Shown here: positions 1-17,658 of the stretch, piece by piece | Layout of the letters: each line of letters opens with the position of its first letter | Numbering within the stretch: position 1 is the stretch's first letter | NCBI GenBank assembly: GCA_029167225.1 | Contig: JARFNK010000004.1 | Span: forward strand, 62,001 to 126,000 | From: Sphingobium arseniciresistens | GTDB taxonomy: Bacteria > Pseudomonadota > Alphaproteobacteria > Sphingomonadales > Sphingomonadaceae | Reading direction: 5' to 3' | DNA: 64,000 nucleotides | Notes under the pieces: model-generated | What the model saw: only the letters and a program-made list of their open reading frames with translations | Told to the model about the DNA's origin: nothing | The model's database searches: none | Translations under genes and position numbers: made by a program

Positions 1-1589
<1,589 letters not shown>

Positions 1590-1607: not shown

Positions 1608-2414
1608 TTAGGATTGGGCGAAGGCGATGCACGCCTTCAGGATGTCGGAAAGGGTGGCGGTGATCGGCGCGGCGCGCGCGGGATCGAAGGGCGGGGGCCA
1701 GTTGCCTTCGTCGGGCAGGCCGGGCTCGTCCATATAGCCGCGGATCGCCAGTTCCATCTGGATGGCGTGGATGCCCTTCTCCGGCTGGCCATAGTGGCGC
1801 GTCGTCCAGCCGCCCTTGAAACGGCCGTCGACGACATGGCTGTGGCCGCTGGCGGCGCAGAGCTGCTCGACCGCCGAAGTCAGCGCGGGCGCGCAGGTCG
1901 TGCCGCTGTTGGTGCCCATGTTAAATTGCGGCAGTTCGCCGTCGAACAGGCGGGGCACATGGCTGCGGATCGAATGGGCATCATAGAGCACGACATCGTC
2001 ATGCTGCTGCCTGAGCCGCGCGATCTCGCCCGCCAGCGCGGCGTGATAGGGATCGAACCATGTCGCGCGGCGCCGGCCGACCTCGGCATCGTCCGGGCCA
2101 TCGCCCACATAGAGCGGCGCGCCGTCGAACGTCGTCGTCGGGCACAGTTCCGTCGTCGCCATGCCGGGATAGAGCGATGCGCCGGATGGATCGCGATTGA
2201 CGTCGATCACGCTGCGCGAAATCGCGGTATGCACCGTCGTGGCGCCCAGATCACGGGCAAAGGCATAGAGCTGGTCGATCCACCAGTCCGCATCCCGCCG
2301 CGCCAGCCATGGCGAGACGAAGCGCTCGCCGACATCGGCCAGATCCGTGCCGGTGTGCGGGAAGGCGACGATGAGCGGCGCCTCTCCTCGATGGATGTCG
2401 AGCCAGCCGGTCAT
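1608..2414 (-). CDS. hutG: N-formylglutamate amidohydrolase (HutG)
   Basis: Hydrolyses N-formylglutamate to glutamate and formate, the last step of the five-step histidine pathway that uses HutF. The 268-residue protein starts [20 protein letters not shown] and has the family features [31 protein letters not shown] and the [11 protein letters not shown] segment; the Asp-Ala-His and other His residues are likely metal ligands. Its ATG overlaps the hutH stop by four bases (ATGA), indicating translational coupling. A longer reading frame upstream is only the shadow of hutH in another frame. The co-occurring hutF confirms this is the formylglutamate amidohydrolase rather than an agmatinase-type formimidoylglutamase, which would not need HutF. 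Confidence 0.95.
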
Positions 2415-3940
2415 GCCACACCGGGCAGCATGTCGCCGGCGATGGCGACCAGCGCGCCCGAACGGATGAGGGCGTTGGCGGCCTCCATGTCCGGGTGGAA
2501 ATGCCGGTCGTCGGACAGATGCGGCACTTCGCTGCGCAGCAGGCCGTGGGCGGCGCCAAGCACATCGCTGGTCGCGAGCGGCGCGTGGAAATCGATGCCC
2601 TGCGCAGCGGCGAGAAATTCGATGCCGATCACGGCAGTCGCGTTCTCGGCCATGTCGAGCAGGCGGCGGGCGCCATGGGCGGCCATGGAGACATGATCTT
2701 CCTGGTTGGCGGAGGTCGGGATGGAATCGACGCTGGCCGGGTAGGCGCGCTGCTTGTTCTCGCTTACCAGTGCCGCCGCTGTCACCTGCGGGATCATGAA
2801 GCCGGAGTTGAGACCGGGCTTGGGGGTGAGGAAGGCGGGCAGGCCGGACAGGGCTGGGTCGACCAGCATGGCGATGCGGCGCTCGGCGATCGATGCGATC
2901 TCGCAGATGGTGAGGGCGATCATGTCGGCGGCAAAGGCGACGGGCTCGGCATGGAAATTGCCGCCCGACAGCGCCTCGTCGGTTTCCGGGAAGATCAGAG
3001 GGTTGTCGGAGACGCCGTTCGCCTCGATCTCCAGCGTGGTCGCGGCCTGGCGCAGCACGTCGAGCGCGGCGCCCATCACCTGCGGCTGGCAGCGCAGGCA
3101 ATAGGGATCCTGCACGCGCGCGTCATTCTCCAGATGGCTCGCGCGGATGGCGGAACCGGCCATCAGCGCCCGGAGCGCGGCGGCGGTCTCGATCTGCCCG
3201 GCATGGCGGCGCAGCGTGTGGATGCGCGGATCGAACGGTGTGTCGGAGCCCTTGGCCGCCTCGGTCGAGAGCGCGCCGGTGACGAGGGCGGACTGGAACA
3301 GCAATTCCGCCTCGAACAGCCCGGCCAGCGCATTGGCGGTCGAGAATTGCGTGCCGTTGAGCAGGGCGAGGCCTTCCTTCGGCCCCAGTTCGATCGCGGT
3401 AAGACCGGCCTTCGCCAGTGCCTCGACAGCGGGCAGGCGATCGTCTCCGAAGAAGATCTCGCCCACGCCGATCATGGCGGCGGCCATGTGGGACAGGGGC
3501 GCAAGATCGCCGCTCGCGCCCACCGATCCCTGGCAGGGGACAACGGGGGTCAGGCCCTTGGCCAGCATCGCTTCGAGCAGGGCGACGGTCTCGGGCCGCA
3601 CGCCCGATGCGCCCTGCGCAAGGCTGGCGAGCTTGAGCGCCATCATCAGGCGGATGACCGGAACGGGCGAGGGCGCGCCGGTGCCCGCCGCATGGCTGAG
3701 CACGATGTTCCGCTGCAGCGTGGCCAGATCCTCGTCACCGATGCGCACGCTCGCCAGCTTCCCGAAGCCGGTGTTGATGCCGTAGACCGGCTCGCCCCGC
3801 GCCAGGATGCGGGCGACGGCGGAGGCGCTTTCCGCAATGCGCGGACCGCAGGCCGGGTCCAGCCGCACCGGGGCGCCGCGATACAGCGCACGCCATTGCG
3901 CCAGCGTCACTTCGCTGGGGGTGAGGGTGATTTCGTTCAT
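2411..3940 (-). CDS. hutH: Histidine ammonia-lyase (HutH)
   Basis: Deaminates L-histidine to trans-urocanate and ammonia, the committing step of histidine catabolism. The 509-residue protein starts [20 protein letters not shown] and carries the signature [14 protein letters not shown]. Its Ala142-Ser143-Gly144 forms the MIO cofactor, the same numbering as the well-studied Pseudomonas enzyme. [11 protein letters not shown] and the HSTA-like and [10 protein letters not shown] segments of the lyase family are also present. The start is set by the four-base ATGA overlap with the hutI stop; longer upstream codons fall inside hutI. It lies mid-operon (hutI-hutH-hutG-hutU), behind the putative HutC operator. 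Confidence 0.97.
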
Positions 3941-5136
3941 TGACCACTCCAGATGCGAGCATGGAGCGGATTGTACCCCATACGATAGACAAGTTCGGCC
4001 GGGCGCTCGATGTCCCAGATGGCAAGGTCGCAGCGCTTGCCCGCCTCCAGCGTGCCGATCCGCTCGCCAAGGCCCAGCGCGGGGGCGGCGTTGCGGGTGA
4101 CGCCGGCGATGCATTCGTCCACCGTCAGGCGGAAAAGGGTCGCGCCCATGTTCATCGTGAGCAGCAGCGATGTCAGTGGCGAGGTGCCGGGGTTGCAGTC
4201 GGTTGCGAGCGCGATCGGCACGCCTGCCTGGCGCAGGGCGTCGATCGGCGGCAGCTTCGTCTCGCGCACGAAATAATAAGCGCCGGGTAGCAATGTCGCG
4301 ACCGTGCCGGCCCTCGCCATCGCGGCGACGCCGGCATCGTCCAGATGTTCGAGGTGATCGGCCGACAGGGCGCCATAGTCAGCCGCCAGACGCGCGCCGT
4401 GGAGGTTGGAAAGCTGTTCCGCGTGCAGCTTGACCGGCAGGCCCAGCGCGGTCGCGGCCCTGAATATCCGTGCGGTCTGCGCGCGGGAAAAGCCGATGCC
4501 TTCGCAAAAGGCGTCCACTGCATCGGCGAGGCCGAGCGCGGTGACCTTTGGCATAAGATCGTCGCACAGCATCGCGATGTAACCATCTGCATCACCGGCA
4601 TATTCGGGCGGCAATGCATGGGCGCCCAGGAAGGTTGTGGCGATCCTGACCGGGCGTTCCTCACCAAGCCGCCGGGCGGCGCGCAGCATCCGCAGTTCGG
4701 AATCCGCATCGAGGCCGTAGCCCGACTTCACCTCGACCGTGGTGGCGCCTTCCGCAATCAGCGCGTCGAGGCGAGGGAGGGCGCCCGCGACAAGATCATC
4801 CTCGCTGGCGGCGCGGGTGGCGCGCATCGTCGAAACGATCCCGCCACCGGCCCGCGCGATCTCCTCATAGGAGGCGCCGGCCAGCCGCATCTCGAATTCC
4901 TGCGCACGGTTGCCGCCATGCACAAGATGGGTGTGGCAGTCGATCAGTCCGGGCGTGATCCAGCGGCCATCGCAGCCAATCGTCTCTTCTGCGTCCAGCG
5001 CGGGCGCCTCGTCGGCGGGGCCGGCATAGACGATATCTCCATCCTTCGCGGCGACGATGCCATCGTCCACGATGCCCAGATCATGGCCCGCCAGCGTTGC
5101 CAGCCGGGCATCTTTCCATAGCCTGTCACATCGCAT
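3937..5136 (-). CDS. hutI: Imidazolonepropionase (HutI)
   Basis: Opens the imidazolone ring of imidazolone-5-propionate to give N-formimidoyl-L-glutamate, the third histidine-degradation step. The 399-residue amidohydrolase has the metal-binding [14 protein letters not shown] (H68, H70), EVKSGYGL, the KLHAEQLSN histidine and the ATDCNPGT aspartate. The chosen start [12 protein letters not shown] gives the usual family length; in-frame codons upstream run through the promoter and have no hut homology. It is the first gene of the minus-strand hut operon and faces hutF across an 88-bp divergent promoter that holds a HutC-like operator. Confidence 0.96.
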
Positions 5137-5190
5137 GTTCGGATCACCATCTGCCGTGTCGCCTCTGGTGATTGCACCATTCGAAAATAA

Positions 5191-5200
5191 TGTATAGACA
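5191..5200. promoter_or_regulatory. Putative HutC operator in the hutI/hutF divergent promoter
   Basis: The near-palindrome TGTATAGACA lies in the 88-bp gap between divergent hutI and hutF, about 55 bp from the hutI start and 25 bp from the hutF start. HutC repressors of the GntR family are known to bind TGTATA-type near-palindromes and to be released by urocanate. The surrounding 14 bases, TAATGTATAGACAA, recur exactly upstream of the TonB receptor at 12466-12475. Binding by this HutC is inferred. Confidence 0.75.
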
Positions 5201-5224
5201 AAAAATTCACGAGGGAGTTGATTT

Positions 5225-6604
5225 ATGCAGGCAGCCCAGGCTGGCCCCGATCGGGCGCTTTTCTTCACCCAGGCATTGCTGCCTGACGGGTGGGCGCGGG
5301 ACGTCCGCATCGTCATCAAAGCCGGGCGAATCGCCGCAGTTGATACGGGCGCCGCCCCGCTGCCGGATGACGAAAAGCATGGCTGCGCGCTGCCCGGAAT
5401 GCCGAACCTCCATAGCCATGCGTTCCAGCGCGGCATGGCGGGGTTGGCGGAAAAACGCGGCCCTTCGGACGACAGTTTCTGGACGTGGCGGGATGTCATG
5501 TACCGTTTCGTGGAGCGGATGACGCCGGAGGACGTGCAGGCCATCGCCGCGCAGGCCTATGTCGAGATGCTGGAAGGCGGCTTCACCCGCGTCGGCGAGT
5601 TCCATTATCTCCACCATGACCGGGGCGGGCAGCCTTTTGCCGACCGTGCGGAGATGAGCGCTGCCATCGTTGCGGCTGCTGCGGAGAGCGGGATCGGCCT
5701 GACGCTGTTGCCGGTCTTCTATGCCCATGCCGGCTTCGGTGCCACGCCACCGCGCCCGGACCAGGCCCGCTTCATCCACGACCTTGATGGCTATGCCATG
5801 CTGCTGGAAGGGGCGGAACGCGCCGCGCGGTCGCTGCCGGATGCCGTGGTCGGTGTCGCCCCGCACAGCCTGCGCGCGGTGTCGCCCGAGGAATTGCGCG
5901 TGCTCGACGGCATGGCGAAGGGGCGGCCTGTCCATATTCATATCGCCGAGCAGACGGCAGAGGTCGAGGCGTGCCTTGCGTGGAGCGGGCAGCGGCCCCT
6001 CGAATGGCTGCTGGAGCATGTTGCTGTCGATGATCGCTGGTGCCTCGTCCATGCGACGCACATGACCGATGCCGAAGTCGCCGCCATGGCGCGCAGCCGG
6101 GCGATCGCCGGACTTTGCCCGATCACCGAGGCCAATCTGGGCGACGGGCTGTTCCCGGCGCAGGCCTTTCTGGCAGCGGGCGGACGCTATGGCATCGGTA
6201 GCGATTCCAACGTGCTGATCGATGCGACCGAGGAACTGCGCCTGCTGGAATATGGGCAGAGGCTGCTGCATCGCGGCCGCAATCTTCTCGCCGGTGAGGC
6301 GGGGCGATCCACGGGCGCGGACGTCTATGGTGCCGCCCTCGCCGGCGGCGCGGCGGCGCTGGGTGCGGCGGTCGGTCTTGCGGTGGGCCTGCCTGCCGAT
6401 ATCCTCAGCCTCGATCTTGCGCATCCCTCGCTGGCTGGCCGAAAGCCGGACAGCCTGCTCGACGGGCTGATCTTCGCCGCCGGCCGCTCCGGCATCGATT
6501 GCGTCTGGCGGTACGGCGAAAAGGTGGTTAGCCATGGTCGTCACCGGGAGCGCGATCGGGTGGGCGCACGCTATCTCTCGGTATTGGGGAAGCTTACCGC
6601 GTGA
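5225..6604 (+). CDS. hutF: Formimidoylglutamate deiminase (HutF)
   Basis: Converts N-formimidoyl-L-glutamate to N-formylglutamate plus ammonia, feeding HutG. The 459-residue metal-dependent amidohydrolase has [14 protein letters not shown] (H63 and H65), [15 protein letters not shown] and the GSDSNVL aspartate region expected of the family. The start [20 protein letters not shown] is preceded by GAGGGAG. It is divergent from hutI and overlaps hutC by four bases (GTGA), so enzyme and repressor are co-transcribed and the operon is self-limiting. The HutF/HutG pair shows that this organism uses the Pseudomonas-like five-step route, not the direct formimidoylglutamase route. Confidence 0.95.
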
Positions 6605-7338
6605 GACAGCCGCTGCATGAGCGCATCCGTTCCGATTTCGAGACGCGCATCCTTTCCGGCGAGCTGGCCCCCGGCGATCGCATCCCGATCGAACAGGATC
6701 TGATGCGCAGCTATGGCTGCTCGCGGATGACGGTCAACAAGGCGCTGTCCGCGCTGCTTTCAGCGGGGCTGATCGACCGGCGCAAGCGGGCGGGCACCTT
6801 CGTCGCGCGCCCGCGCGTGCATTCGATGGTGCTCGACGTGCCCGACCTGCCCTCGCAGATCCGCGAGCGCGGACAGCATTATGCCTATGCGCCGCTGGTG
6901 CGCTGCCAGCGCCGGCCGCTGGACGGCATGGCCGAGGAGGCGTTGCTGGCCGGCGAGGGCGATCTGGTGCAGATGGAGGGGCTCCATCTCGCCAACGAGA
7001 TCCCGCTGGCGGTGGAATATCGTCTGGTCAGCGTCGATGCGGTGCCGGCGATTGCCGACGCGGACATCGACAGTGTCTCGCCGGGCAGCTGGCTGCTCCA
7101 GCATGTGCCTTGGACCGAGGCGGAAACCCGGATTTCGGCCGTTGCCGCCGATAGCGACGAGGCGCGTCTGCTGCGGATCGCCGAGGGTTCGGCCTGTCTT
7201 TGCGTGGAGCGGCGCACATGGCGCGGCAGCGATCGCATCACCTATGTCAGGCAGCTGTTCCTGGGCGATGCCTATGATCTCGTCGCGCGCTTCGGCCCCG
7301 CGGGCGGAAACGCAACGGTGGATGCGGCGTCCCGGTAA
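6601..7338 (+). CDS. hutC: Histidine-utilisation repressor HutC, GntR family
   Basis: A 245-residue GntR/HutC-subfamily repressor. The N-terminal winged helix (about residues 3-70) contains RIPIEQDLMRSYGCSRMTVNKALSALLSAG, and the C-terminal UTRA domain (about 90-235) is expected to bind urocanate. It starts with GTG inside the hutF stop (GTGA overlap), which implies translational coupling to hutF. Candidate operators are TGTATAGACA at 5191 and at 12466, so its targets probably include its own operon, hutIHGU, and the TonB receptor/peptidase pair. Confidence 0.93.
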   Translation: MRQPLHERIRSDFETRILSGELAPGDRIPIEQDLMRSYGCSRMTVNKALSALLSAGLIDRRKRAGTFVARPRVHSMVLDVPDLPSQIRERGQHYAYAPLVRCQRRPLDGMAEEALLAGEGDLVQMEGLHLANEIPLAVEYRLVSVDAVPAIADADIDSVSPGSWLLQHVPWTEAETRISAVAADSDEARLLRIAEGSACLCVERRTWRGSDRITYVRQLFLGDAYDLVARFGPAGGNATVDAASR

Positions 7339-7386
7339 TTAGCCGATGCACCGGGCGGCGGCGCCCAAGTAGAGCCAGCCTTGCAC

Positions 7387-7426
7387 AAAAAAGGGGCGGA
7401 CCTGATCCCAGGCCCGCCCCCTTTTT
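7387..7426. terminator. Bidirectional intrinsic terminator between hutC and the M14 peptidase
   Basis: A run of six A is followed by a 12-bp stem with one mismatch (GGGGCGGACCTG / CAGGCCCGCCCC), loop ATCC, then CTTTTT. The A-tract and T-tract make it usable from both directions, and it lies between two convergent genes. Confidence 0.85.
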
Positions 7427-7429
7427 CCG

Positions 7430-10054
7430 TCATTTCTTTGCGCTGTCCGGGTAAAGAGTGTTGAACAGCAGCTTGTAGGTGCCGTGCGACTGGGCGCGCC
7501 ACTGCGGCTTGAAGCCGTAGAGGAAGATCTTGCCCTTGCCATAGTCCACTTCGATCGCGGCTGCCTTGCCCTGGATCATCTCCGGGTGGAGTAGCACGCC
7601 GCTGCGCAGCGGGTTCCCGGTGGGGGCGTAGGAGGCGAGGATCTCGCCCTTGAAGCCCGGCTTGGGCGCAAAGGCGGGGCCGCGCTCGAACATCACGATC
7701 GGGTCGGCGGGCATGCCGGCCGAAACCGAGGTGCCTTCCTTCAGGTCGACCGCGAGCAGTGCTCCCGAGCAGAAGAACTGTTCGCTCTTCACATTCTTCA
7801 GGATGTTGGTGACGGGCAGGTCGAACAGGTCGATGATCGCATCCGACGCATTGTTGAGCGCCACCAGTGTACCGCCGGCCTTGACGAACGCCATCAGCTT
7901 TTCCGCGCCGTCCTTGCCGATGCCGCCGGCATAGGGAGCGGGCATCTGGCTGGGGCTGAAGCCGTCCATCAGGCCCGCGAGCGGCCCCTTATAGGCGGAA
8001 ACCGTATCGGGCGCAGGCGCGGTGTCGCCCGGCCGCGAACGGGGCGGGCCGCTCAGGTCGGGGATGATGATCGTGTCATATTTGCCGGCAAGCCCGGCCT
8101 TCACGTCGGCATTGTAGACGTTCTTGGGCTGGAAGGCATATTGCTCCAGCAGCCAGCGGGTCCAGCCCTCGTCGATGTTCGAACCCCATGGCCGATAGAG
8201 CGCGACGCGACCCTTGTGGACCGCCGTGCCTTCCGCCTTCTGCGTGCTCGCGGTGACGGGCACGCTGAAGTCGGCAGCGATCTTGCCCATGGCGGCCGGC
8301 GACAGGCCGGTAATGGCGATGGCGGGCTCCGGCGCGCCGCCGGCTGTCAGCGCAGCGCTGGTCCATGTCGCCTTGCCACCGGCCGCAAGCGCGGTGTTCA
8401 ACACGCGGTAGCTGTTGTTGATCTTGCGGCTGACCAGATAGGTGCTGCCTTCGCCACTGACGCTGCCGGCGGGCGGCGTCGCCTGCGCGATCTTGTGCAT
8501 GTCGCCGCGCACCGCGTCGATCGGCTGGACGATGCGGTCGACCCGCACACCCATCTGCATCGGCAGCGTCCATCCGGTCACGTCATAGGGCAGGTCCACG
8601 GGCTTGCCGTCGCCATCCAGGATCGCATCGGGATAGGCCTGCTTCTCGAACAGTTCCCGGGCGAGGCCGGCAAAGGGCTGGTCGGTCGGCACCACGAAAC
8701 TGCCGGCGGCATAGCTCTGGGTGCCGATCGTCGTCGGCTTGTCGAGCTGCAGTACGTCGAGGCCATGGGCGATCATCAGCTGGGCGAGCGATGCCGCTTC
8801 GGGCATGTCGGTCTGGCCAGCCGGGATCACATAGGCGGCCGGGCCATCCTTGGCAGCGGCGGCGACCATGTCGCGCCCGGCCTGATAGCGGTTATAGAGC
8901 AGCGTCTCGCGATATTTCTGCGCGGTCTCCAGCACGGACATCGACGCGGTCATCATATAGTCGACCGAGTTCTTGAGGTGCCATTCGCCACCACGCCACG
9001 GGTTCGGGTACATGATCTGCGCCTTGAGGTCGCGCATGTTCTCCGGGAAATCCTCGACCTTGGTGTTCATCGGCGTCGCGCTGTCATGCGCGGTCTCGGT
9101 GAAGAAGGAGATCGTGTTGCGGAAGACGTGGATATAGTCGAGGAAACCCGCATACCAGTTGTCGAAGCGGGCCTGCGCGATCGCGCCGGGCTTACCCTCG
9201 CTCTCCATCCGCGCCATGATGTTGGTGCCGATGGCGTTGGTCCAGATACGCATATAGGGGCTGATGTTCGACGATACCGGATCGGCGAAGGGCGGCACCC
9301 AGATGCGTGCGGGGAAGGGCGCGGTCTGGTGCTGCGAATACCAGATGACCGGGGCATAGGTCTGCTCGGTCGCGTTGACGACCTGGCTTTCCTTCATGTT
9401 CAGCATATAGCCGTCACGGTTGTTATCGTGACCGACATATTCCTGGTAGAGCCAGGGCGTGCGGCTGGTTTCCCACTTCGTGCCACGCTGCTTGCGATAC
9501 CAGTCGACGACCATGTCCTGGCCGTCGGGGTTGAGCGTGGGCCACAGCACCAGGATGACATTGTCGAGGATCGCGTCGATCTCTGCATCGTCCTTGGCCG
9601 ACAGCAGCTTGTAGGCGAGGGCGAGGGGCAGCTGGTGGTCGGCCACTTCGCTGGCGTGCATGCCGCCGTCGATATGGACGATGATCTTGCTGTCCTTGGC
9701 GAGCTTGCGCGCTTCCGCGTCGGTCAGGCCGCGCGGATCGCCGAGGCGCTTTGAAATGGCGGTATATTTGTCGAAATTGGCGATGTTGGCGGCGGACGAA
9801 ATGACCGCATAGGTCATCGTGCGGCCCTGCGTCGTCTTGCCGGTATTGAACAGCTTGATCCGGTCGGACGCCTTGGCCAGCGCTTGGAAATAACGGACCG
9901 ATTCCTCGTAGTTGGCGAGATAATAGTCGTCGCCCGGATCATGTCCCAGAACCGCCTTCGGGCTCGGCACGGTATCGGCCAGCGCCGGGGCGGAAAGCCC
10001 CAGCGCCGACGCCATAAGCAATACGCGCACCGCGCGCGAAAGCGGTCTGGTCAT
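7430..10054 (-). CDS. Exported M14-family zinc carboxypeptidase-like metallopeptidase
   Basis: An 874-residue protein with a signal peptide (residues 1-26, cleavage near SAPALA/D), so probably periplasmic. The M14 zinc-binding HASE motif lies at H133-E136 (GGMHASEVAD), followed by NPDGQDMV, GHDNNRDGY, the third-ligand region YSQHQTAPF and a TETAHDS segment likely to hold the catalytic Glu. A long C-terminal region of about 500 residues is beyond the catalytic domain, as in many bacterial M14 proteins annotated simply as peptidases. It starts 28 bp after the TonB receptor stop and is almost certainly co-transcribed with it. A HutC-like operator in front of the pair suggests that it trims peptides into free amino acids, including histidine. 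Substrate unknown. Confidence 0.85.
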   Translation of the reverse strand: MTRPLSRAVRVLLMASALGLSAPALADTVPSPKAVLGHDPGDDYYLANYEESVRYFQALAKASDRIKLFNTGKTTQGRTMTYAVISSAANIANFDKYTAISKRLGDPRGLTDAEARKLAKDSKIIVHIDGGMHASEVADHQLPLALAYKLLSAKDDAEIDAILDNVILVLWPTLNPDGQDMVVDWYRKQRGTKWETSRTPWLYQEYVGHDNNRDGYMLNMKESQVVNATEQTYAPVIWYSQHQTAPFPARIWVPPFADPVSSNISPYMRIWTNAIGTNIMARMESEGKPGAIAQARFDNWYAGFLDYIHVFRNTISFFTETAHDSATPMNTKVEDFPENMRDLKAQIMYPNPWRGGEWHLKNSVDYMMTASMSVLETAQKYRETLLYNRYQAGRDMVAAAAKDGPAAYVIPAGQTDMPEAASLAQLMIAHGLDVLQLDKPTTIGTQSYAAGSFVVPTDQPFAGLARELFEKQAYPDAILDGDGKPVDLPYDVTGWTLPMQMGVRVDRIVQPIDAVRGDMHKIAQATPPAGSVSGEGSTYLVSRKINNSYRVLNTALAAGGKATWTSAALTAGGAPEPAIAITGLSPAAMGKIAADFSVPVTASTQKAEGTAVHKGRVALYRPWGSNIDEGWTRWLLEQYAFQPKNVYNADVKAGLAGKYDTIIIPDLSGPPRSRPGDTAPAPDTVSAYKGPLAGLMDGFSPSQMPAPYAGGIGKDGAEKLMAFVKAGGTLVALNNASDAIIDLFDLPVTNILKNVKSEQFFCSGALLAVDLKEGTSVSAGMPADPIVMFERGPAFAPKPGFKGEILASYAPTGNPLRSGVLLHPEMIQGKAAAIEVDYGKGKIFLYGFKPQWRAQSHGTYKLLFNTLYPDSAKK

Positions 10055-10082
10055 GATGAATCAACCCTTAATCGAGGAATGT

Positions 10083-12383
10083 TCAGAAGCTGTGGCGCAG
10101 ATTGACGCCGATCGTGCGGGGCGCGGCCGAGGTGGCCGAGTAGGAGTTGGCGGTGGAAGACCGCGAAGCCCGGTTGATCGCCACGGAGTCGAACAGGTTG
10201 TTGACGAACAGATAGACGCCCGTGTCGCTTGCCGGCAGCTCGAGGCCGACGCGCAGGTTGGCGAGCGCATAATCCGCCATCTTCACCCGGTAGACGTTGG
10301 TCGGCCGGAATTCCGAATAGGAAGACCCGGCATAGTTGACGTCGGCGCGGGCGAAGAAGTTGACGCTGTCGCTGACCGGCACCGTATATTCCGCACCGAG
10401 CGATCCGCTCCAGTGCGGGATGTAGGGGATGCGATCCCCGGCGCGGCCGGCGGCGACTACTGCGTCGCTGATCTGATCTTCCGTCAGCTTGGCGTCGAGA
10501 TAATTGCCCGACAGGGTGAACTGCAGACCCTGGAGCGGCCGCAGGAACGCTTCTGCCTCAAGGCCACGGATGCGGGCAGCGCCGGCATTGGACAGGAAGC
10601 TGAAGGCGCCGTTGGTGGTGCGGCCGCTGACCTGCATGTTCTTCCAGTCGATCTGGTAGGCGGCAAGGTTCAGCGTCAGCTTGCGATCCAGCAGGGTCAG
10701 CTTGGTGCCCGCCTCATAGTTCCACAGGCGATCCGCCTCATAGGGCGTGAGGTCCGCGGAGAGCCCGATCACCTGGTTTGCGCCGCCCGGACGGAAACCC
10801 TGCGATGCGGTCGCATAGAACATCACGTCAGGCGTTGCCTGCCACGCGGCGTTGAACTTCAGCAGCGTGCCGTCTTCCGAGGAGTCGACCGTGGAGAGCG
10901 GCCGTGCCGGGGCACCGATCAGCGTCCAGGCAATGTCGGTGAAGCCCTGCACCGTCTTGTTATAGTCGAAATAACGGATGCCTGCCGTCAGGCTCAGCTC
11001 TGGCGTGGCGTGGAAGGTGCCTTCGCCGAACACCGCGAACTGCTCCAGCTTGTCGAAGATCTGGCGGCGATAGAAGAGCTGGACGGGCTTGATGATCTCA
11101 CCCGTGGCATCGTCGGCGCGTGCGTCGGACGAGGTCACTTCGTTCTTGCGGTTCTGGTAGAAGCCGCCGACCGTCCAGTCGAACAGGTTCGTGCCCACCG
11201 AACTCACGCGGACTTCCTGCGTGAAATCCTTGGTCGATCCGGGATAGTAGATCGCCGCGGGGCTGAGGCTGTCGATATAGCTGTAATAGTCGGTCAACTG
11301 GCTGCCGGAGCAGGCATTGGCGCTGCCACCGTTCAGATAGGAGCCGCAGCTTGCCGCGTTCCGATAGCTGCCGATATAATAGCTGTCGTCGGCCGCATAG
11401 GCGGACTTGCGGTGCTGGTAGGAGGTGATCGAGGTCAGCGATACGCCGCCAATGTCCCACTTCGCGGTCAGGTTATAGACCTGCGACTTGTCGTTATAGG
11501 GCAGCATGACCTGCGCGGCGGTCTTGTAGTCGCCCACCTGCGGGTTCCACGAGGCAGACACGGCATCGGTGTTCTCGAACATGGCCGAGGCATCGATGGT
11601 GAGGTTCGACGAAGGAGTCAGGCGCGCCATCAGGCGGCCGCCGGTCGCGGTATAGTCGTTCACATTCTTGCGACCCAGGAACGTGTTGTCGACATAGCCA
11701 TCGCTGTCGCGGCGATAGAGCACGGCGCGCACGGCGAGCAGGTCCTTCACCACCGGCAGGTTGACCATGCCGTTGACGAAATAGCCGAAGCCGCCGCCCT
11801 TGGTGGACATCATCTGGCCCTCGACGGTGCCTTCATACTCCTGCGTCGGTTTGTTGAGGATGACGCGGATCGCGCCGCCCATCGAGCTTGCGCCATAGAG
11901 CGTGCCCTGCGGGCCGCGCAGCACTTCGATGCGGCTGACGTCGAACAGGGTGAAGTCGGCGGTGCGGCCGGCGGCGTCGCTGGATACGCCGACGGAGCCG
12001 GTGACGGGCGTGTCGTCATAATAGACGCCCACCGTGGCTTCGCCCGATGCCTGCACGCCGCGCAGGCTGACGCGGCGTTGGCCTGGGCCGTTATCCTGAA
12101 TGCGCAGGCTGGGGACGAACTTGGCATAGTCTGCGATGTTGGTGACGCCGGCGTTGGTCAGCGTCTCTCCGGTCAACGCGGTGATCGCCATCGGCGTCTT
12201 TTGCAGGGTGGTGTCGCGGCGCGTTGCCGTAATGACGATGTCGCCATCCGCGTTCGCAGCGGCACCGGCCTCTTGCGCGGCCTGGGCATGGGCGATAGTC
12301 GGCAGCCCAGCCGACAGTGCCGCCACCGCCGTACAGACGGAAAGGCGACGAAGAACATCTTGAATTTTGGACCTATTGTTCAC
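10083..12383 (-). CDS. TonB-dependent outer-membrane receptor, probable HutC target
   Basis: A 766-residue TonB-dependent receptor. A signal peptide (about residues 1-33, ending IAHAQ) is followed by a TonB-box-like DIVITATRR, the plug domain (VLRGPQGTLYGASSMGGAI) and a 22-strand barrel ending in a C-terminal Phe (NLRHSF). It starts with GTG. It is the first gene of a two-gene minus-strand operon with the M14 peptidase. About 83 bp upstream lies TGTATAGACA, matching the hut promoter site. The ligand is not evident; a histidine-containing peptide or urocanate-linked nutrient is an inference from regulation. The hut locus here has no visible permease, which fits this receptor serving as an uptake component. 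Confidence 0.92.
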   Translation of the reverse strand: MNNRSKIQDVLRRLSVCTAVAALSAGLPTIAHAQAAQEAGAAANADGDIVITATRRDTTLQKTPMAITALTGETLTNAGVTNIADYAKFVPSLRIQDNGPGQRRVSLRGVQASGEATVGVYYDDTPVTGSVGVSSDAAGRTADFTLFDVSRIEVLRGPQGTLYGASSMGGAIRVILNKPTQEYEGTVEGQMMSTKGGGFGYFVNGMVNLPVVKDLLAVRAVLYRRDSDGYVDNTFLGRKNVNDYTATGGRLMARLTPSSNLTIDASAMFENTDAVSASWNPQVGDYKTAAQVMLPYNDKSQVYNLTAKWDIGGVSLTSITSYQHRKSAYAADDSYYIGSYRNAASCGSYLNGGSANACSGSQLTDYYSYIDSLSPAAIYYPGSTKDFTQEVRVSSVGTNLFDWTVGGFYQNRKNEVTSSDARADDATGEIIKPVQLFYRRQIFDKLEQFAVFGEGTFHATPELSLTAGIRYFDYNKTVQGFTDIAWTLIGAPARPLSTVDSSEDGTLLKFNAAWQATPDVMFYATASQGFRPGGANQVIGLSADLTPYEADRLWNYEAGTKLTLLDRKLTLNLAAYQIDWKNMQVSGRTTNGAFSFLSNAGAARIRGLEAEAFLRPLQGLQFTLSGNYLDAKLTEDQISDAVVAAGRAGDRIPYIPHWSGSLGAEYTVPVSDSVNFFARADVNYAGSSYSEFRPTNVYRVKMADYALANLRVGLELPASDTGVYLFVNNLFDSVAINRASRSSTANSYSATSAAPRTIGVNLRHSF

Positions 12384-12465
12384 TTGCTACCCCTTTTTGA
12401 TTGTCCTCGTCCCGCAATCTTTATCGTCAGGCTTTTTTCGAATCCGATCATAGAAGCAAAATTAA

Positions 12466-12475
12466 TGTATAGACA
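12466..12475. promoter_or_regulatory. Second HutC-like operator, upstream of the TonB receptor operon
   Basis: TGTATAGACA sits about 83 bp upstream of the receptor's GTG in an AT-rich promoter region. With flanks it reads TAATGTATAGACAA, identical over 14 bases to the site between hutI and hutF. No gene on the other side is close enough to be the more likely target. Confidence 0.7.
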
Positions 12476-12664
12476 AGATATTTTATTGCTCAAAAACTGA
12501 GCAAGAAACATCTAAAATGCTAAAAATTTAGGCAGGCAGATGACGGTGTGAACATATGATTGAAGACGCCGCGGCCTTGAAATGACGTTGGTCCAAGTCT
12601 GCCCGCGAGCGAGATATAGAGCGATGGCACTTGAAGGCCTGCAGGCAAATCCGGGGATATCGTC

Positions 12665-13273
12665 ATGAGCACGCTGCCCATCCTCTATAGCTTCCGCCGC
12701 TGCCCCTATGCGATGCGGGCGCGCATGGCGCTGCAGATCAGCGGGCAGGCGGTGGACATTCGGGAGGTGGTGTTGCGGGCCAAGCCGGCAGCGATGCTGG
12801 AGGCCTCACCAAAGGGTACGGTCCCGGTGTTGGTGCTGCCGGAGGGGCAGGTGATCGACCAGAGCCTCGACATCATGCGCTGGGCGCTTGCACGGCACGA
12901 CCCGGAGCATTGGCTCTCGGGCGATGATGCCGCGCTGATCGATCGGAACGACGGTTCGTTCAAGCATCATCTGGATCGCTACAAATATCCCGAAAGGCAT
13001 GGATCGGACCCGCTGGAGCACAGGGCCGGAGGCGCGGCGATCCTCACTGATCTGGAGGCCCGCCTTGGTGAGGCCGGGCAGTTCTGCGGACCGACCCGAA
13101 CGCTGGCCGACATCGCGCTTTTCCCCTTCATCCGTCAGTTCGCGGCGACCGATCAGCTATGGTTCGATCTCCAGCCCTTGCCGCGATTGCAGGCGTGGTT
13201 GCAGGGGCATCTCTCGTCGGCGCTGTTTGCCGATGCGATGGTGCGGCGCGCGCCCTGGATGCCGGCGGATTAA
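12665..13273 (+). CDS. Glutathione S-transferase family protein
   Basis: A 202-residue cytosolic GST-like protein. The N-terminal thioredoxin-fold domain has YSFRRCPYAMRARMAL with a CPYA motif, PKGTVPVLVLP with the cis-proline, and DQSLDIMRWAL, which is the glutathione-contact ESxxI-type segment with Gln-Ser. The helical C-terminal domain runs from about residue 90. The CPYA cysteine suggests an omega- or beta-like thiol-transfer enzyme rather than a Tyr/Ser GST. It starts MSTLPILYSF and is convergent with ridA, with only 16 bp between stops. No regulator is adjacent and the substrate is unknown. Confidence 0.85.
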   Translation: MSTLPILYSFRRCPYAMRARMALQISGQAVDIREVVLRAKPAAMLEASPKGTVPVLVLPEGQVIDQSLDIMRWALARHDPEHWLSGDDAALIDRNDGSFKHHLDRYKYPERHGSDPLEHRAGGAAILTDLEARLGEAGQFCGPTRTLADIALFPFIRQFAATDQLWFDLQPLPRLQAWLQGHLSSALFADAMVRRAPWMPAD

Positions 13274-13289
13274 GCGTCCTGTGGCGCGG

Positions 13290-13688
13290 TTACTCCCGAA
13301 GCACCCCGATTGCGTCGATTTCGATCAGATATCCATAGTGAAGCTCCGTCACCGGCACGACCGTCCGCGCCGGCCGGGCATTGGGCAGCATCGAGGCATA
13401 GACGGCATTGAAACGCGGCCAGTTCTCGACGCCTACAATATAGGCAGTGACCTTCGCGAGATGATCCGCATCGCCGCCGGCGGCCTTCAGCACTGCGAGC
13501 ATATTGGCGATCGCCTGCCGTGCCTGATCCTCGAAAGAAGCGTCGGCGCGCTGTGTGCCGTCAGGCGCGATCGGCAACTGACCCGAGACATAGATGGTGC
13601 CGCCCGCGATTGTCGCCTGCGCATAATGGCCGGCGGGTCTTGGCGCATTTTCCGTCAGCACGACAGTCACGGCGTTCTTGTCCGGCAT
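13290..13688 (-). CDS. RidA family enamine/imine deaminase
   Basis: A 132-residue Rid-family protein (YjgF/YER057c/UK114). It shows the fold's hallmarks VSGQLPIAPDG, QARQAIANMLAVLKAAGG, VTAYIV and the PARTVVPV segment, whose Arg binds the carboxylate of 2-iminoacids. RidA hydrolyses reactive enamines and imines released by PLP dehydratases. The start MPDKNAVTVVL overlaps the stop of the upstream PLP enzyme by one base (TGATG), so the two are coupled. An in-frame upstream Met would add eight residues inside the neighbour. Context makes it the partner of the dehydratase-like enzyme. Confidence 0.9.
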   Translation of the reverse strand: MPDKNAVTVVLTENAPRPAGHYAQATIAGGTIYVSGQLPIAPDGTQRADASFEDQARQAIANMLAVLKAAGGDADHLAKVTAYIVGVENWPRFNAVYASMLPNARPARTVVPVTELHYGYLIEIDAIGVLRE

Positions 13689-14851
13689 CACCAGCCTCCG
13701 AAGCGCGGCCATTGGGCCTCGACGATGTCCGACGTGCCGTGCACGACATGATAGCGATCATGCTGTGCGCCCGTCGCGCAGGCATGGTTGGGCAGGATGC
13801 GGACGCGATCGCCCACGGCCAGTTCGGGCAGTGTTCCACTCGCCCCCGGCCGCAGCGCGATGATGCCATGTTCCTGATTGGCATCGACCAGGATCAGGTC
13901 GCCATAGGGATTACCCGAAAGATCGCACACCAGGCCATAGCCCTGATCGACTGCCTGCTTCGCCGTGCCCCGGTCGCGCGACATCGCCATCCATCCGGCA
14001 TCGACCAGGATCCAGCCCTTGCCGTGCTGATGCCCGATGACCGTGGCCAGCACCAAAAGCGCGATATCGTCGATCGCGCAGATGCCGATGCCGGCCATCA
14101 CCAGATCGAAGAACACAAAGACGCCGGCGCGGACCTCCGTCACGCCGTCAAGGGTGACGGCATGGTGCGCGGTGGGGCTGGAGCCGACGCTGACGACGGG
14201 GCAGGCAAATCCATCCTCGCGCAGGATGGTGGCGGCTGTGACCACACTCTGGCGCTCGATTTCCGCGCATTGCCGCAGCGCGTCGATGCCCTGCGCGCCA
14301 TAGCTGCCGCCTGCATGGGTCAGCACGCCGCGCAGTTCGGCATGCGTCCCCAGCGCCCGGCCGATCGCCAGCAGCCTATCCGCGTCCGATGGCAGCACGC
14401 CAGAGCGGTGCCCGTCGCAGTCGATCTCGATCAGCGCCGGGATCGCGGTGCCGGCGGCGCGGGATGCATCGGCGACCGCCGCCGCCTGTTCAGGCGAATC
14501 CAGTACGACCGCAAGGTCCACGCCCTGATCGCGGAGCGCCAGGACGGCAGGCAGCTTGGCCGGCGTGATCCCGACGGCATAGATCATGTCGCGCACGCCC
14601 GCCGCCGCGAATTGCTCTGCTTCCTTGAGGGTGGAGACGGTCGCCGGTCCGACAGGGGTCTGCATCATCCGCCGGGCGACATCGGTCGACTTGGCCGTCT
14701 TGAGATGCGGGCGAAGGCTGACGTCCAGCGGCGCGAGGCGCTCGTGCAGGCGCGCGATGTTACGGTCCATGCGATCGGTGTCGAGCACCAGGCAGGGCGT
14801 GGCGAGATCGCGCAATGTCGCCGGAGAGGGTGCCGCCTGTGGTTCTTCCAT
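13688..14851 (-). CDS. D-threonine aldolase / D-serine dehydratase-like PLP enzyme
   Basis: A 387-residue fold-type III PLP enzyme: an alanine-racemase-like N-terminal barrel with LRPHLKTAKS, whose Lys is the likely Schiff-base residue, and a C-terminal domain ending with ILPNHACAT. The His and Cys of that last motif are the metal (Zn/Mn) ligands of eukaryotic-type D-serine dehydratase and D-threonine aldolase. The likely reaction is cleavage or dehydration of a D-3-hydroxyamino acid (D-serine, D-threonine or D-threo-3-hydroxyaspartate). The one-base overlap with a RidA gene favours a dehydratase, because dehydratases release enamine/imine intermediates. It lies downstream of an MFS transporter on the same strand. 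Which of these substrates is used cannot be read directly. Confidence 0.85.
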   Translation of the reverse strand: MEEPQAAPSPATLRDLATPCLVLDTDRMDRNIARLHERLAPLDVSLRPHLKTAKSTDVARRMMQTPVGPATVSTLKEAEQFAAAGVRDMIYAVGITPAKLPAVLALRDQGVDLAVVLDSPEQAAAVADASRAAGTAIPALIEIDCDGHRSGVLPSDADRLLAIGRALGTHAELRGVLTHAGGSYGAQGIDALRQCAEIERQSVVTAATILREDGFACPVVSVGSSPTAHHAVTLDGVTEVRAGVFVFFDLVMAGIGICAIDDIALLVLATVIGHQHGKGWILVDAGWMAMSRDRGTAKQAVDQGYGLVCDLSGNPYGDLILVDANQEHGIIALRPGASGTLPELAVGDRVRILPNHACATGAQHDRYHVVHGTSDIVEAQWPRFGGW

Positions 14852-15010
14852 CTATCCCTCGACGCCCGTGTTACATCGCGGCCCTTATCGATCATCGCGG
14901 TGCTGGGCGCTGCGAAAACGCGACCGGTCCTGCATGTCTTTCTGTCGCGCGAAAGGCAATGCACTTCCTTGCGGGATTCGCTTGCTTCACTGCCTCGGGC
15001 TTACTCGTCG

Positions 15011-16246
15011 CTATTTTGTGAGCGGCGTATGTCGCGGCAGGCTGGCGAGGGCGAGGCTGCTTGCCACCATGAAGGCCATGGTCAGCCAAAGAAAGGGCGC
15101 ATAGCTGTGATACTGATCGAAGACCGCCGAGGCGCCGAGCGGCCCTGTCGCGGTGCCAATCGACAGAGCGGTCAGCAGACCACCGTAGAGCGCACCGAAA
15201 TTCTTCAGGCCGAAATATCGTGTCGTGAGATAGACGATGACATCCACCTCCGCGCCCAGGGTCAGCCCGACCAACGCGGCGGCAATGGCCTGCCCCGCAA
15301 GCCAGTCGCCGGCCACCAGCAGCAGGATGCAGCCTGCCGCGGGAAGCAGGAAGACCACGGCGCCGACAAGAGATCCGCTAAAACGGTCGAGCAGCAGGCC
15401 GGTGCCCAAACGCCCGATGATCGAGAAAAGCCCGACCAGCGCGGTGATCCCCGCGGCTTTCAGCGGGTCCGCCCCGCGATCGGTCAGGATCGGCACGAAA
15501 TGGACCACGAGTGCGATGATCGTGAAGGTGAACAGCAGGCTGGCAAGCAGCAGGCGAAGATAGATCGAGGATTTGAGCCCTTCCGACAGGCTGGCGCCCG
15601 TCAGTTCGCGCCTTTTCTCCGGCACGGCGTCCATATGCTTGCGCTGCTTGTCATGCGCGCCGCGGAAGAAGAGCAGGATCACCGGAAATGCGATCGCGGC
15701 CCAGATCGCTCCTTGCGCCAGAAAAGCTGTACGCCAGCCATAGGCGCCGATCAGCCATGTGCCGAGCAGCGGGAAGACGGCCACGGCCACGGACGCACCG
15801 CACAGGGTGATGGCGAAGGCCAGTCCCCGCGATGCTTCGAAACGGGTGGCCACGGCGCTGGTCCATATGGTGGCCTGCACCGGCAAGGTGGCGATCGCCA
15901 GGACGCCCCAGAGAAAATACCATTGCGTCTTGTCGCCCGACGTCATGCTGAGCAGGGCAAACGCGCCGGTGGTCAGCAGAACGCCGACGAGCCCGAACAA
16001 CCGGGGGCCAAATCTGTCCACGAGCAGGCCTATGGGGATGCCGAACAACGCCTGGGTGAGGGTGGCGATGGTCAGGCCGACCGTCGTCTGCGTGCGTGTC
16101 CAGCCGAAGGACTGGCTGATCGGCTCGATATAGGGGCCCAGCCCATAGATGTGGATGACGCTCGTCGCATATCCCAGGGCGGCGGCGATCGGGAGCATGT
16201 AATAGCGCTGCCATTCGGCGCTGGCGTTGCCGGCGATCGTCGTCAT
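15011..16246 (-). CDS. MFS transporter
   Basis: A 411-residue major facilitator with about 12 predicted hydrophobic helices. The loop 2-3 signature appears as GLLVDRFGPRLFG, and a related GTGLLLDRFSG occurs in the second half. The start MTTIAGNASAEWQRYYMLP is chosen because upstream in-frame codons run through a palindrome and lack hydrophobic character. The protein resembles the oxalate/formate-antiporter-like and monocarboxylate-type MFS subfamilies. It lies upstream of the D-hydroxyamino-acid enzyme and RidA on the same strand, with a 159-bp gap, and is likely their importer. Substrate inferred from context only. Confidence 0.85.
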   Translation of the reverse strand: MTTIAGNASAEWQRYYMLPIAAALGYATSVIHIYGLGPYIEPISQSFGWTRTQTTVGLTIATLTQALFGIPIGLLVDRFGPRLFGLVGVLLTTGAFALLSMTSGDKTQWYFLWGVLAIATLPVQATIWTSAVATRFEASRGLAFAITLCGASVAVAVFPLLGTWLIGAYGWRTAFLAQGAIWAAIAFPVILLFFRGAHDKQRKHMDAVPEKRRELTGASLSEGLKSSIYLRLLLASLLFTFTIIALVVHFVPILTDRGADPLKAAGITALVGLFSIIGRLGTGLLLDRFSGSLVGAVVFLLPAAGCILLLVAGDWLAGQAIAAALVGLTLGAEVDVIVYLTTRYFGLKNFGALYGGLLTALSIGTATGPLGASAVFDQYHSYAPFLWLTMAFMVASSLALASLPRHTPLTK

Positions 16247-16261
16247 TGCGGCTCTCTGCCG

Positions 16262-16278
16262 GGGACCGTTTTGGTCCC
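16262..16278. promoter_or_regulatory. Palindrome upstream of the MFS transporter
   Basis: GGGACC-GTTTT-GGTCCC is a perfect 6-bp inverted repeat with a 5-bp centre, 16 bp upstream of the MFS start codon. Its position suggests an operator or a leader hairpin. No regulator gene is adjacent, so the cognate factor is unknown. Confidence 0.4.
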
Positions 16279-16631
16279 GCAACATCTCTGATCGGCAATG
16301 TCCGGCTTTGCTGCCCCCACCTGTTCCTGCTCCCTCATTATTTCCTGCGGCAAGTCTATGGGGCGAAACGCAACATCGCCAGCCGCATCTCCTGTGGATC
16401 GCTACGCTGGAGCGATGTTTCTTCGCGCAGCCGGTGGGCTCCGGCCTGCCCGGTAAAGGCAGGGCAGGGAACATGGAAGTTACGTCAACTGCGCGAAGCG
16501 GAACGAATAGCGGGGCTGTGGCGGTCCGTTTGCATGTCTGCTGAAATGGTCGGCGGTGAAGCAGGGCTATTTCGATAGCGAACTGTCTTGCTCCTTTCGG
16601 AGAACACGCGCCGCTTAATGTTCTGAAAAGA

Positions 16632-16650
16632 GATTCGATTAAAACGACTC
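16632..16650. promoter_or_regulatory. Two GANTC (CcrM) methylation sites upstream of ctrA
   Basis: GATTC at 16632-16636 and GACTC at 16646-16650 lie about 150 bp upstream of ctrA. In Caulobacter the ctrA P1 promoter contains a GANTC site, and CcrM methylation silences it until the fork passes. A similar cell-cycle gate is plausible here, by analogy only. Confidence 0.5.
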
Positions 16651-16798
16651 GCCTGTTTTCGGCGGTTATCGGAAAATTAACCTTTTGCGTTCACAACTGG
16701 TTTGGTTAATAGATACGAGCGGCTGTGGCATCCGACTGGGGGCCGCATTGGGGGGCAACCGAGCGTACCTTTTTGGGCGACAACAAGGGGCTGGCATA

Positions 16799-17506
16799 AT
16801 GCGCGTGCTGCTGATCGAAGACGAACCGACAACGGCAAAGGCCATCGAGCTGATGCTGACGACCGAAGGTTTCAATGTCTACAACACTGACCTGGGTGAG
16901 GAAGGCCTCGATCTGGGTAAGCTCTACGATTATGACATCATCTGTCTCGACCTGAACCTGCCTGACATGCACGGCTATGACGTGCTGAAAAAGCTGCGCA
17001 GTGCGAAGGTACAGACACCGGTGCTGATCCTTTCGGGCATCAGCGAGATGGACAGCAAGGTTCGTTCCTTCGGCTTCGGTGCCGACGATTATGTGACCAA
17101 GCCGTTCCATCGCGAGGAACTGGTGGCGCGCATCCATGCCGTGGTCCGCCGTTCCAAGGGGCATTCGCAGTCGGTCATCCGTACCGGCAAGCTCGCGGTG
17201 AACCTGGATGCCAAGACCGTGGAAGTGGACGGCAACCGCGTCCATCTCACCGGCAAGGAATATGCGATGCTGGAGCTGCTTTCGCTCCGCAAGGGTACGA
17301 CGCTGACCAAGGAAATGTTCCTGAACCACCTGTATGGCGGGATGGACGAGCCTGAACTGAAGATCATCGATGTGTTCATCTGCAAGCTGCGCAAGAAGCT
17401 CGCGCTGGCTTGTGGAGGCGACAACTATATCGAGACCGTGTGGGGCCGTGGCTATGTGCTGCGCGATTCCGACGAAGAGATCGAGCCCGAAGCGCGCGTC
17501 GCCTGA
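16799..17506 (+). CDS. ctrA: Cell-cycle response regulator CtrA
   Basis: A 235-residue OmpR-type response regulator. The receiver domain (1-120) has the acidic pocket E7/D8 and phospho-acceptor Asp51 ([13 protein letters not shown]), with Lys at [14 protein letters not shown]. The winged-helix DNA-binding domain has the highly conserved [20 protein letters not shown] and [14 protein letters not shown], nearly identical to Caulobacter CtrA. CtrA controls division, motility and replication genes through TTAA-type boxes. The start MRVLLIEDE is the conserved one; upstream in-frame extension is non-conserved. The C-terminus ends ARVA, with Val-Ala rather than the Ala-Ala that marks Caulobacter CtrA for ClpXP. 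It stands alone between unrelated metabolic genes, with its own terminator downstream. Confidence 0.96.
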
Positions 17507-17563
17507 CGCGGATCGGCTCGTATCAGACTATTGCTATTCGGAAGGCTTTCGAAGGGGGCAGGG

Positions 17564-17599
17564 AAGACCGGCGTTTCGAGGGGGAAGCGCCGGTCTTTC
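17564..17599 (+). terminator. Intrinsic terminator downstream of ctrA
   Basis: The hairpin AAGACCGGCGTTT / AAGCGCCGGTCTT (13-bp stem with one G-T pair) is followed by a short T-rich tail, about 60 bp after the ctrA stop and before the convergent P450 gene. Confidence 0.75.
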
Positions 17600-17658
17600 T
17601 ATGTTTGTCGTTTCCGGCGTCGTGCGCGTTGCTCCGGATCGGCCAGCGCGCCGTGATC

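Follow-up and report, generated by a model that had tools for sequence, protein, structure and literature searches.

A HutC-type operator shared by the histidine utilization genes and a TonB-dependent receptor–M14 peptidase operon in Sphingobium arseniciresistens

Introduction

In Pseudomonas, the repressor of histidine utilization (hut), HutC, binds an operator of the form TGTA-N2-TACA, as defined by footprinting, and urocanate is the inducer (PMC12977541, PMC8871633). At the Pseudomonas hutU promoter NtrC binds two palindromic subsites, and there is interplay between HutC and NtrC (PMC8871633, PMC12977541). For Sphingomonadales and Caulobacterales, Leyn et al. (2016; PMC5343134) predicted a TonB-dependent outer-membrane transporter as a target within HutC regulons and proposed that it serves histidine uptake. 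Here we describe a stretch of 64,000 nucleotides from Sphingobium arseniciresistens (contig JARFNK010000004.1, positions 62,001 to 126,000; hereafter the window), in which a hut gene cluster adjoins an operon for a TonB-dependent receptor and an M14 carboxypeptidase-like protein, and in which HutC-type operators are found at the promoters of both. G, L and C numbers are our own handles for genomes, loci and contigs.

Given the prediction of Leyn et al., the receptor half of this arrangement is not new; their transporter could be either the window receptor or the type encoded on contig C23 of the same genome (see section on HutC-type regulators). Their main text assigns neither a peptidase nor NtrC boxes to the HutC regulon: the word “carboxypeptidase” is absent from it and “peptidase” appears twice, under TyrR and HypR (PMC5343134). 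The HypR regulons described there are similar in that an amino acid catabolic regulon includes a TonB transporter, secreted collagenases and dipeptidases, but they concern proline and hydroxyproline and have another regulator and another set of peptidases. The core of the window operators is one base off the Pseudomonas form (PMC12977541). In Pseudomonas, HutC and NtrC act at a catabolic operon with a sigma54 promoter (PMC12977541, PMC8871633), whereas in the window the NtrC-type pair belongs to the import operon, with none found at hutI-hutF and no sigma54 element seen. No published link between hut genes and an M14 peptidase, or of NtrC boxes with this receptor, was found in a search of mainly open-access literature, and the peptidase and nitrogen-control layers look new.

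A pair of HutC-type operators

The 14-mer TAATGTATAGACAA occurs at 5188-5201 and 12463-12476, in both cases on the plus strand; the window has no further copy, and 100 shuffles gave an expectation of 0. The first copy lies inside the 88-bp divergent gap between hutI (start 5136, minus strand) and hutF (ATG at 5225, plus strand), and the second is 83 bp from the GTG start of the receptor gene (12383, minus strand), as reported by the first-pass annotation of this DNA. The core, TGTATAGACA, fits the HutC-subfamily consensus GTMTAKAC (PMC4494728), in agreement with its earlier description as a known HutC form. When one mismatch to the core is allowed, the count in the window stays at 2 (shuffle mean 0.49).

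In the genome as a whole (6,600,125 bp in 120 contigs) the exact core is found twice, at these two promoters. A control with the reversed pattern also gave 2, so that it is the placing of the copies rather than their number that is remarkable. The genome scan had been set beforehand as the test of the operator claim, many copies in unrelated places counting against it. It returned only the two exact cores and, with one mismatch, 48 rows compared to 113 in the control, so that good copies are neither in excess nor scattered. HutC-type variants (TGTMTAKACA) are present at three places in the genome, the two window sites and C23:145484, which speaks against a large HutC regulon in this genome. 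A chance repeat of the 14-mer, already considered unlikely from the sequence of the window, is rejected in view of its two positions in 6.6 Mb together with its conservation in relatives.

Conservation of the operators in related genomes

Contigs were scanned with an alignment of three M14 proteins (from the window, G071 and G057), which gave 99 loci, of which the best 80 were retained. The promoter test set consisted of 21 alphaproteobacterial loci besides the window: all 19 among the 80, plus G071 and G057. A strict site was defined as TGTMTAKACA within 350 bp upstream of the receptor gene, or of the M14 gene where a receptor of this type does not precede it.

A strict site was present in 18 of the 21 loci, compared to 0.01 expected from 400 dinucleotide shuffles of each. 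Thirteen loci (L123-L128, L130, L131, L133, L134, L136, L158, L168) have the site at both promoters, and the operator is kept at both in loci of Sphingomonas, Novosphingobium, Sphingobium and Asticcacaulis. Receptor homologues located away from hut genes (L204, L205, L096 and L097; 45-50% identity) have no HutC-type site with up to two mismatches in the searched stretch. Based on this conservation, and on genomes with a single HutC and both sites (see below), the earlier proposal that the HutC regulon reaches the receptor–M14 operon is upheld, and HutC very probably controls this operon. The arrangement is not a vertical trait of the whole genus: of 94 genomes of the genus, including this one, 10 match the receptor with an E-value of 1e-100 or better, and a close receptor (80%) is found only in G236, the next best being at 48%.

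Promoter of the receptor operon and NtrC-type boxes

The best sigma70-like match adjoining operator 2 (Table 1) has its -35 box covered by the HutC site; a second match lies at 12552-12525. No sigma70-like match was found at the hutI-hutF promoter. Two NtrC-type dyads lie upstream of the operator core, at positions -28 and -59 relative to it and 31 bp from each other. These tandem boxes are a feature beyond the first-pass annotation, as is the second HutC equivalog described below. Both are found at a fixed place (-28; -59 or -60) in all 8 near-clade promoters (window, L123-L128, L158), with one arm base changed in 3 of the 16 boxes. Pairwise identity is 0.93 for the arms of the proximal box and 0.89 for the HutC core, compared to 0.24 for the DNA between the boxes. 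The pair was found in none of 10 other promoters examined (a related dyad is present in L190 at -49, and a weak one in L132 at -20), nor at any of 16 hutI-hutF promoters.

The outer bases of the boxes fit the Pseudomonas NtrC consensus GCACCA-N3-TGGTGC (PMC12977541). With up to one mismatch, TGCNYAWWWWWTRNGCA is found at 13 places in the genome, compared to 4 in the control, and two of these are at the receptor–M14 operon. NtrC-type dyads also precede glnB (a P-II gene)-glnA, dusB (2.2 kb before the NtrC gene) and a RelA/SpoT gene, while at glnK (the second P-II gene)-amtB two dyads in tandem are followed by a good sigma54 promoter, TGGCACG-N4-TTGC. Four places (C28, C29, C33:132737, C88:176202) lie within or close to genes that have no evident link to nitrogen; further places are at C77 and C88:27463. 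Judging by the sequence of the boxes and their counterparts at nitrogen genes, it is likely that NtrC binds the pair at the receptor promoter. A sigma54 promoter before the receptor was considered and rejected, as its element was not found there.

A separate conserved word, GGTGCAATC, lies at about 5151-5176 of the window, on the hutI side of the hutI-hutF operator. One NtrC-like half-site falls within this word, which is kept at the same place in L123, L125, L126, L127, L131 and L158.

Several observations weigh against the model proposed below for the receptor–M14 operon. All three M14 query proteins came from HutC-linked loci, so the scan was biased to such loci, and the 18 site-bearing loci are in part close kin (L133/L134/L136; L126/L128; L129/L168) and do not represent 18 independent events. 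The strict site is missing in L135, L137 and L201; the first two have one-mismatch sites, while the nearest site in L201, whose M14 protein is distant (33%) and which has no hut gene, has three mismatches. None of the gammaproteobacterial loci (L138, L139, L145, L156, L194, L161) has a strict site before the receptor or M14 gene; one-mismatch sites are present in the first four, a two-mismatch site in L194 and none in L161. The operator is matched in conservation by the 10-bp linker (0.87) that separates it from the proximal box, and thus part of the conservation belongs to the promoter as a whole. No sigma54 -24/-12 element was found downstream of the boxes at the receptor promoter, yet NtrC carries the GAFTGA motif. 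Finally, hut genes were not found (E 1e-4; some contigs are short) in 51 of the 55 M14 loci from outside the Proteobacteria, and the M14 family may have other roles in them.

HutC-type regulators in this and related genomes

In a search of 22 genomes with TIGR02018, 15 had a single protein above the cut-off, 5 had two and 2 had three. Nine genomes with a single HutC have both sites in the fetched locus (G236, G240, G241, G242, G244, G245, G247, G248, G253), which makes one HutC the simplest reader of both.

The S. arseniciresistens genome itself encodes a second HutC equivalog on contig C23 (TIGR02018, 273 bits), which has similar operators. The C23 module (L106, C23:132000-151999; 8472-13494) comprises this regulator, a TonB receptor and two PepSY_TM-type proteins, one over and one under the Pfam cut-off. 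TGTATATACA lies 46 bp before the receptor open reading frame (ORF) and TGTATAGTCA lies before the regulator gene. This locus is possibly a second HutC-type import module; the assembly is listed with 6% contamination, which casts some doubt on the comparison. TIGR02018 proteins of the same clade are also found in G243, G057 and G254.

Away from the hut enzymes, the M14 gene has a linked HutC paralogue in three genomes (G071, G057 and Sphingomonas sp. QA11). In G071 (L090, L091) the module of receptor, M14 and HutC paralogue is 3.2 Mb away from a hut operon that bears its own HutC, and this pair of loci offers natural material for the study of inducer specificity. In Sphingomonas sp. QA11 (L190, 9076-19084), a HutD-like gene, the M14 gene, the HutC paralogue, an S9 peptidase gene and a TonB receptor gene are found together, with four strict HutC-type sites in 7 kb; the S9 peptidase and TonB receptor genes lie around two of these.

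The receptor and the M14 protein

The receptor has plug and beta-barrel domains (PF07715, PF00593), both above cut-off, and its structure model has a mean pLDDT (predicted local distance difference test) of 76.8. The M14 protein scores 68.1 bits on Peptidase_M14 (PF00246; cut-off 21.6), and its N terminus, judged by eye, is of the exported type. Residues H133, E136, N212, R213, H242 and E320 are invariant in 35 aligned sequences. By analogy with other M14 enzymes, and not from a residue-by-residue structural match, we take these to include the zinc ligands (HxxE plus H), the catalytic E and the substrate-binding R.

The N-terminal part has the M14 carboxypeptidase fold according to Foldseek (best E 1.3e-7, target TM-scores mostly 0.45-0.65), and the C-terminal domain is amidotransferase-like (2a9v, target TM-score 0.70). 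The model is of low confidence at 207-219 and 291-308, stretches that hold conserved residues. The protein resembles carboxypeptidases A, B and T in its N-terminal fold and in the HxxE, H, R and E residues; in contrast to these it has 874 residues, an amidotransferase-like domain and no relative in the PDB by sequence (phmmer, E 0.01).

Linkage of M14 and hut genes beyond the sphingomonads

A hut enzyme gene is present in 20 of the 25 proteobacterial M14 loci, the exceptions being L138, L139, L190 (HutC only), L194 and L201. In Shewanella mangrovi (L145), receptor, M14 and hut genes form one cluster, which also includes a Na+/H+ antiporter-family gene, and in Asticcacaulis tiandongensis an amino acid permease gene follows the M14 gene. 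The 4 non-proteobacterial M14 loci with hut genes are all from Acidobacteriota (L151, L165, L193, L199) and have the order receptor-M14-hutU-hutI-hutF on one strand. Acidobacteriota receptors related to that of L165 are of another type, with PF25183 and a carboxypeptidase-regulatory-like domain, and are unrelated to the window receptor.

An M20 protein encoded after hutF in Acidobacteriota was considered as a dipeptidase and rejected, as the L165 copy scores as an ArgE-type deacetylase. Relatives follow hutF in L193 and L199, and the M20 protein may stand in for HutG in these loci.

We suggest, as a proposal with an even chance of being right, that the M14 proteins of this family (carboxypeptidase plus amidotransferase-like domain) are dedicated histidine-peptide scavenging enzymes, joined independently to unrelated receptors and hut genes in Proteobacteria and Acidobacteriota, and that nitrogen status (NtrC) and histidine status (HutC) meet, in sphingomonads, at the import arm rather than at the catabolic one.

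Gene cluster and surroundings

The genes are arranged as hutI-hutH-hutG-hutU on the minus strand, hutF-hutC on the plus strand and then receptor-M14 on the minus strand (Table 1). The hutU product has 73-92% identity to the protein encoded at the hutU place in relatives, and 53-60% in the four Acidobacteriota loci; the name is based on this identity, a TIGR01228 match having been scored only in L165.

Table 1. Features of the hut and receptor–M14 region (window coordinates)
Feature	Position	Strand	Basis or remark
hutU, urocanate hydratase	3..1589	-	open ORF running off the left end of the window
hutG, N-formylglutamate deformylase	1608..2414	-	TIGR02017; start checked
hutH, histidine ammonia-lyase	2411..3940	-	TIGR01225; start checked
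hutI, imidazolonepropionase	3937..5136	-	TIGR01224; start checked
HutC-type operator 1, divergent hutI-hutF promoter	5191..5200	+	14-mer and core searches; same place kept in relatives
hutF, formimidoylglutamate deiminase	5225..6604	+	TIGR02022
hutC, GntR/UTRA repressor	6601..7338	+	TIGR02018, 268 bits, cut-off 220
M14 carboxypeptidase-like protein, 874 aa (amino acids)	7430..10054	-	PF00246; invariant residues; fold
TonB-dependent receptor, 766 aa, GTG start	10083..12383	-	PF07715, PF00593
sigma70-like promoter TTGTCT-18-TATGAT, receptor-M14 operon	12447..12476	-	consensus match only
HutC-type operator 2, upstream of receptor-M14 operon	12466..12475	+	reads TGTCTATACA in operon direction; covers -35 box
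proximal NtrC-type box TGCTCAGTTTTTGAGCA	12487..12503	-	dyad TGC-N11-GCA, 17 bp
distal NtrC-type box TGCCTAAATTTTTAGCA	12518..12534	-	dyad TGC-N11-GCA, 17 bp

No histidine permease was found in the cluster, and the 11 ORFs scanned in 12 kb beyond hutU include no transporter, which bears out the earlier remark that the locus has no visible hut permease. The sole transporter-like gene near by in the window encodes a major facilitator superfamily (MFS) transporter (15011-16474, minus strand) and has no strict site. Around it are genes for a D-serine dehydratase/alanine racemase-type protein (13688-14851, minus strand), a response regulator (16685-17506, plus strand) and a cytochrome P450 (17659-18879, minus strand). 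No strict HutC-type site was found beside the genes of 13688-18879.

Proposed model and alternatives

Taken as a whole, it is fairly likely that the receptor–M14 operon represents the uptake arm of the HutC regulon, with a layer of NtrC control and with histidine-peptide import as its function, the substrate step carrying less weight than the others. Without urocanate, a HutC dimer would occupy the operator over the -35 box as well as the divergent hutI-hutF promoter, and would hold down import, peptidase and catabolic genes together. Histidine would be converted to urocanate by basal HutH, HutC would be released, and all of these transcripts would rise. NtrC at the two boxes, whatever the sign and mechanism of its action, might place the import operon under nitrogen-limitation control. 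The receptor would carry a histidine-containing peptide or conjugate into the periplasm, the exported M14 carboxypeptidase, if active, would there free histidine or a shorter peptide, and a presumed unlinked permease would pass the product to HutH, HutU, HutI, HutF and HutG.

That the substrate is a histidine-containing peptide or conjugate is somewhat favored. Sphingomonads have many TonB receptors of unknown substrate. An unlikely alternative is that the operon is controlled by HutC and its ligand is not a peptide at all, but a metal-histidine complex, free histidine, urocanate or a histidine-bearing siderophore, with an M14 protein that trims the carrier or has lost activity. The models and PDB chains nearest to the receptor are siderophore, pesticin and colicin receptors, which counts against peptide import, but these models score below their cut-offs (165.5 bits on TIGR01783, the TonB siderophore receptor subfamily, compared to a cut-off of 223.5). 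Similarly, the inducer may differ where M14 is linked to a HutC paralogue away from the hut enzymes, as in G071, G057 and QA11, and the second HutC equivalog accompanies a receptor and PepSY_TM-type proteins, a kind associated with iron uptake. In contrast, the putative zinc and catalytic residues of M14 are invariant, an S9 peptidase gene stands beside strict sites in QA11, and Acidobacteriota join the same M14 family to hut genes with a different receptor, all of which argue for a peptide or conjugate.

It is improbable that another GntR/UTRA regulator, such as the C23 equivalog, acts at the receptor–M14 promoter in place of the local HutC. The TIGR02018 score of the C23 protein and the operators before its own gene and the neighboring receptor count in favor of this, as does the HutC paralogue linked to the receptor–M14 operon of G071. 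However, the nine genomes noted above have both sites and a single HutC equivalog, and the C23 type, with only 30% identity, falls in a remote clade and differs in its recognition segment (VSRMTANRAL compared to CSRMTVNKAL). Lastly, a chance match, or a promoter word conserved without any regulator reading it, is a very improbable explanation of the shared 14-mer. The overlap with the -35 hexamer, the conserved linker and the equal count of the reversed control speak for it, but the 18 loci retain both half-sites, also the bases that lie beyond the -35 box, and the same word is present at hutI-hutF, where no sigma70-like match was found.

Biological meaning

Control by HutC thus probably reaches from histidine catabolism to the outer membrane, and the bacterium can probably feed on histidine-containing peptides. 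The combination of a HutC operator, a linked peptidase and nitrogen-type boxes would give this receptor a concrete, testable class of substrates, namely histidine peptides or conjugates used as a nitrogen source. The locus would illustrate a route by which an amino acid regulon can extend to the cell surface, and a case in which an import promoter, rather than a catabolic one, may bring HutC and NtrC together.

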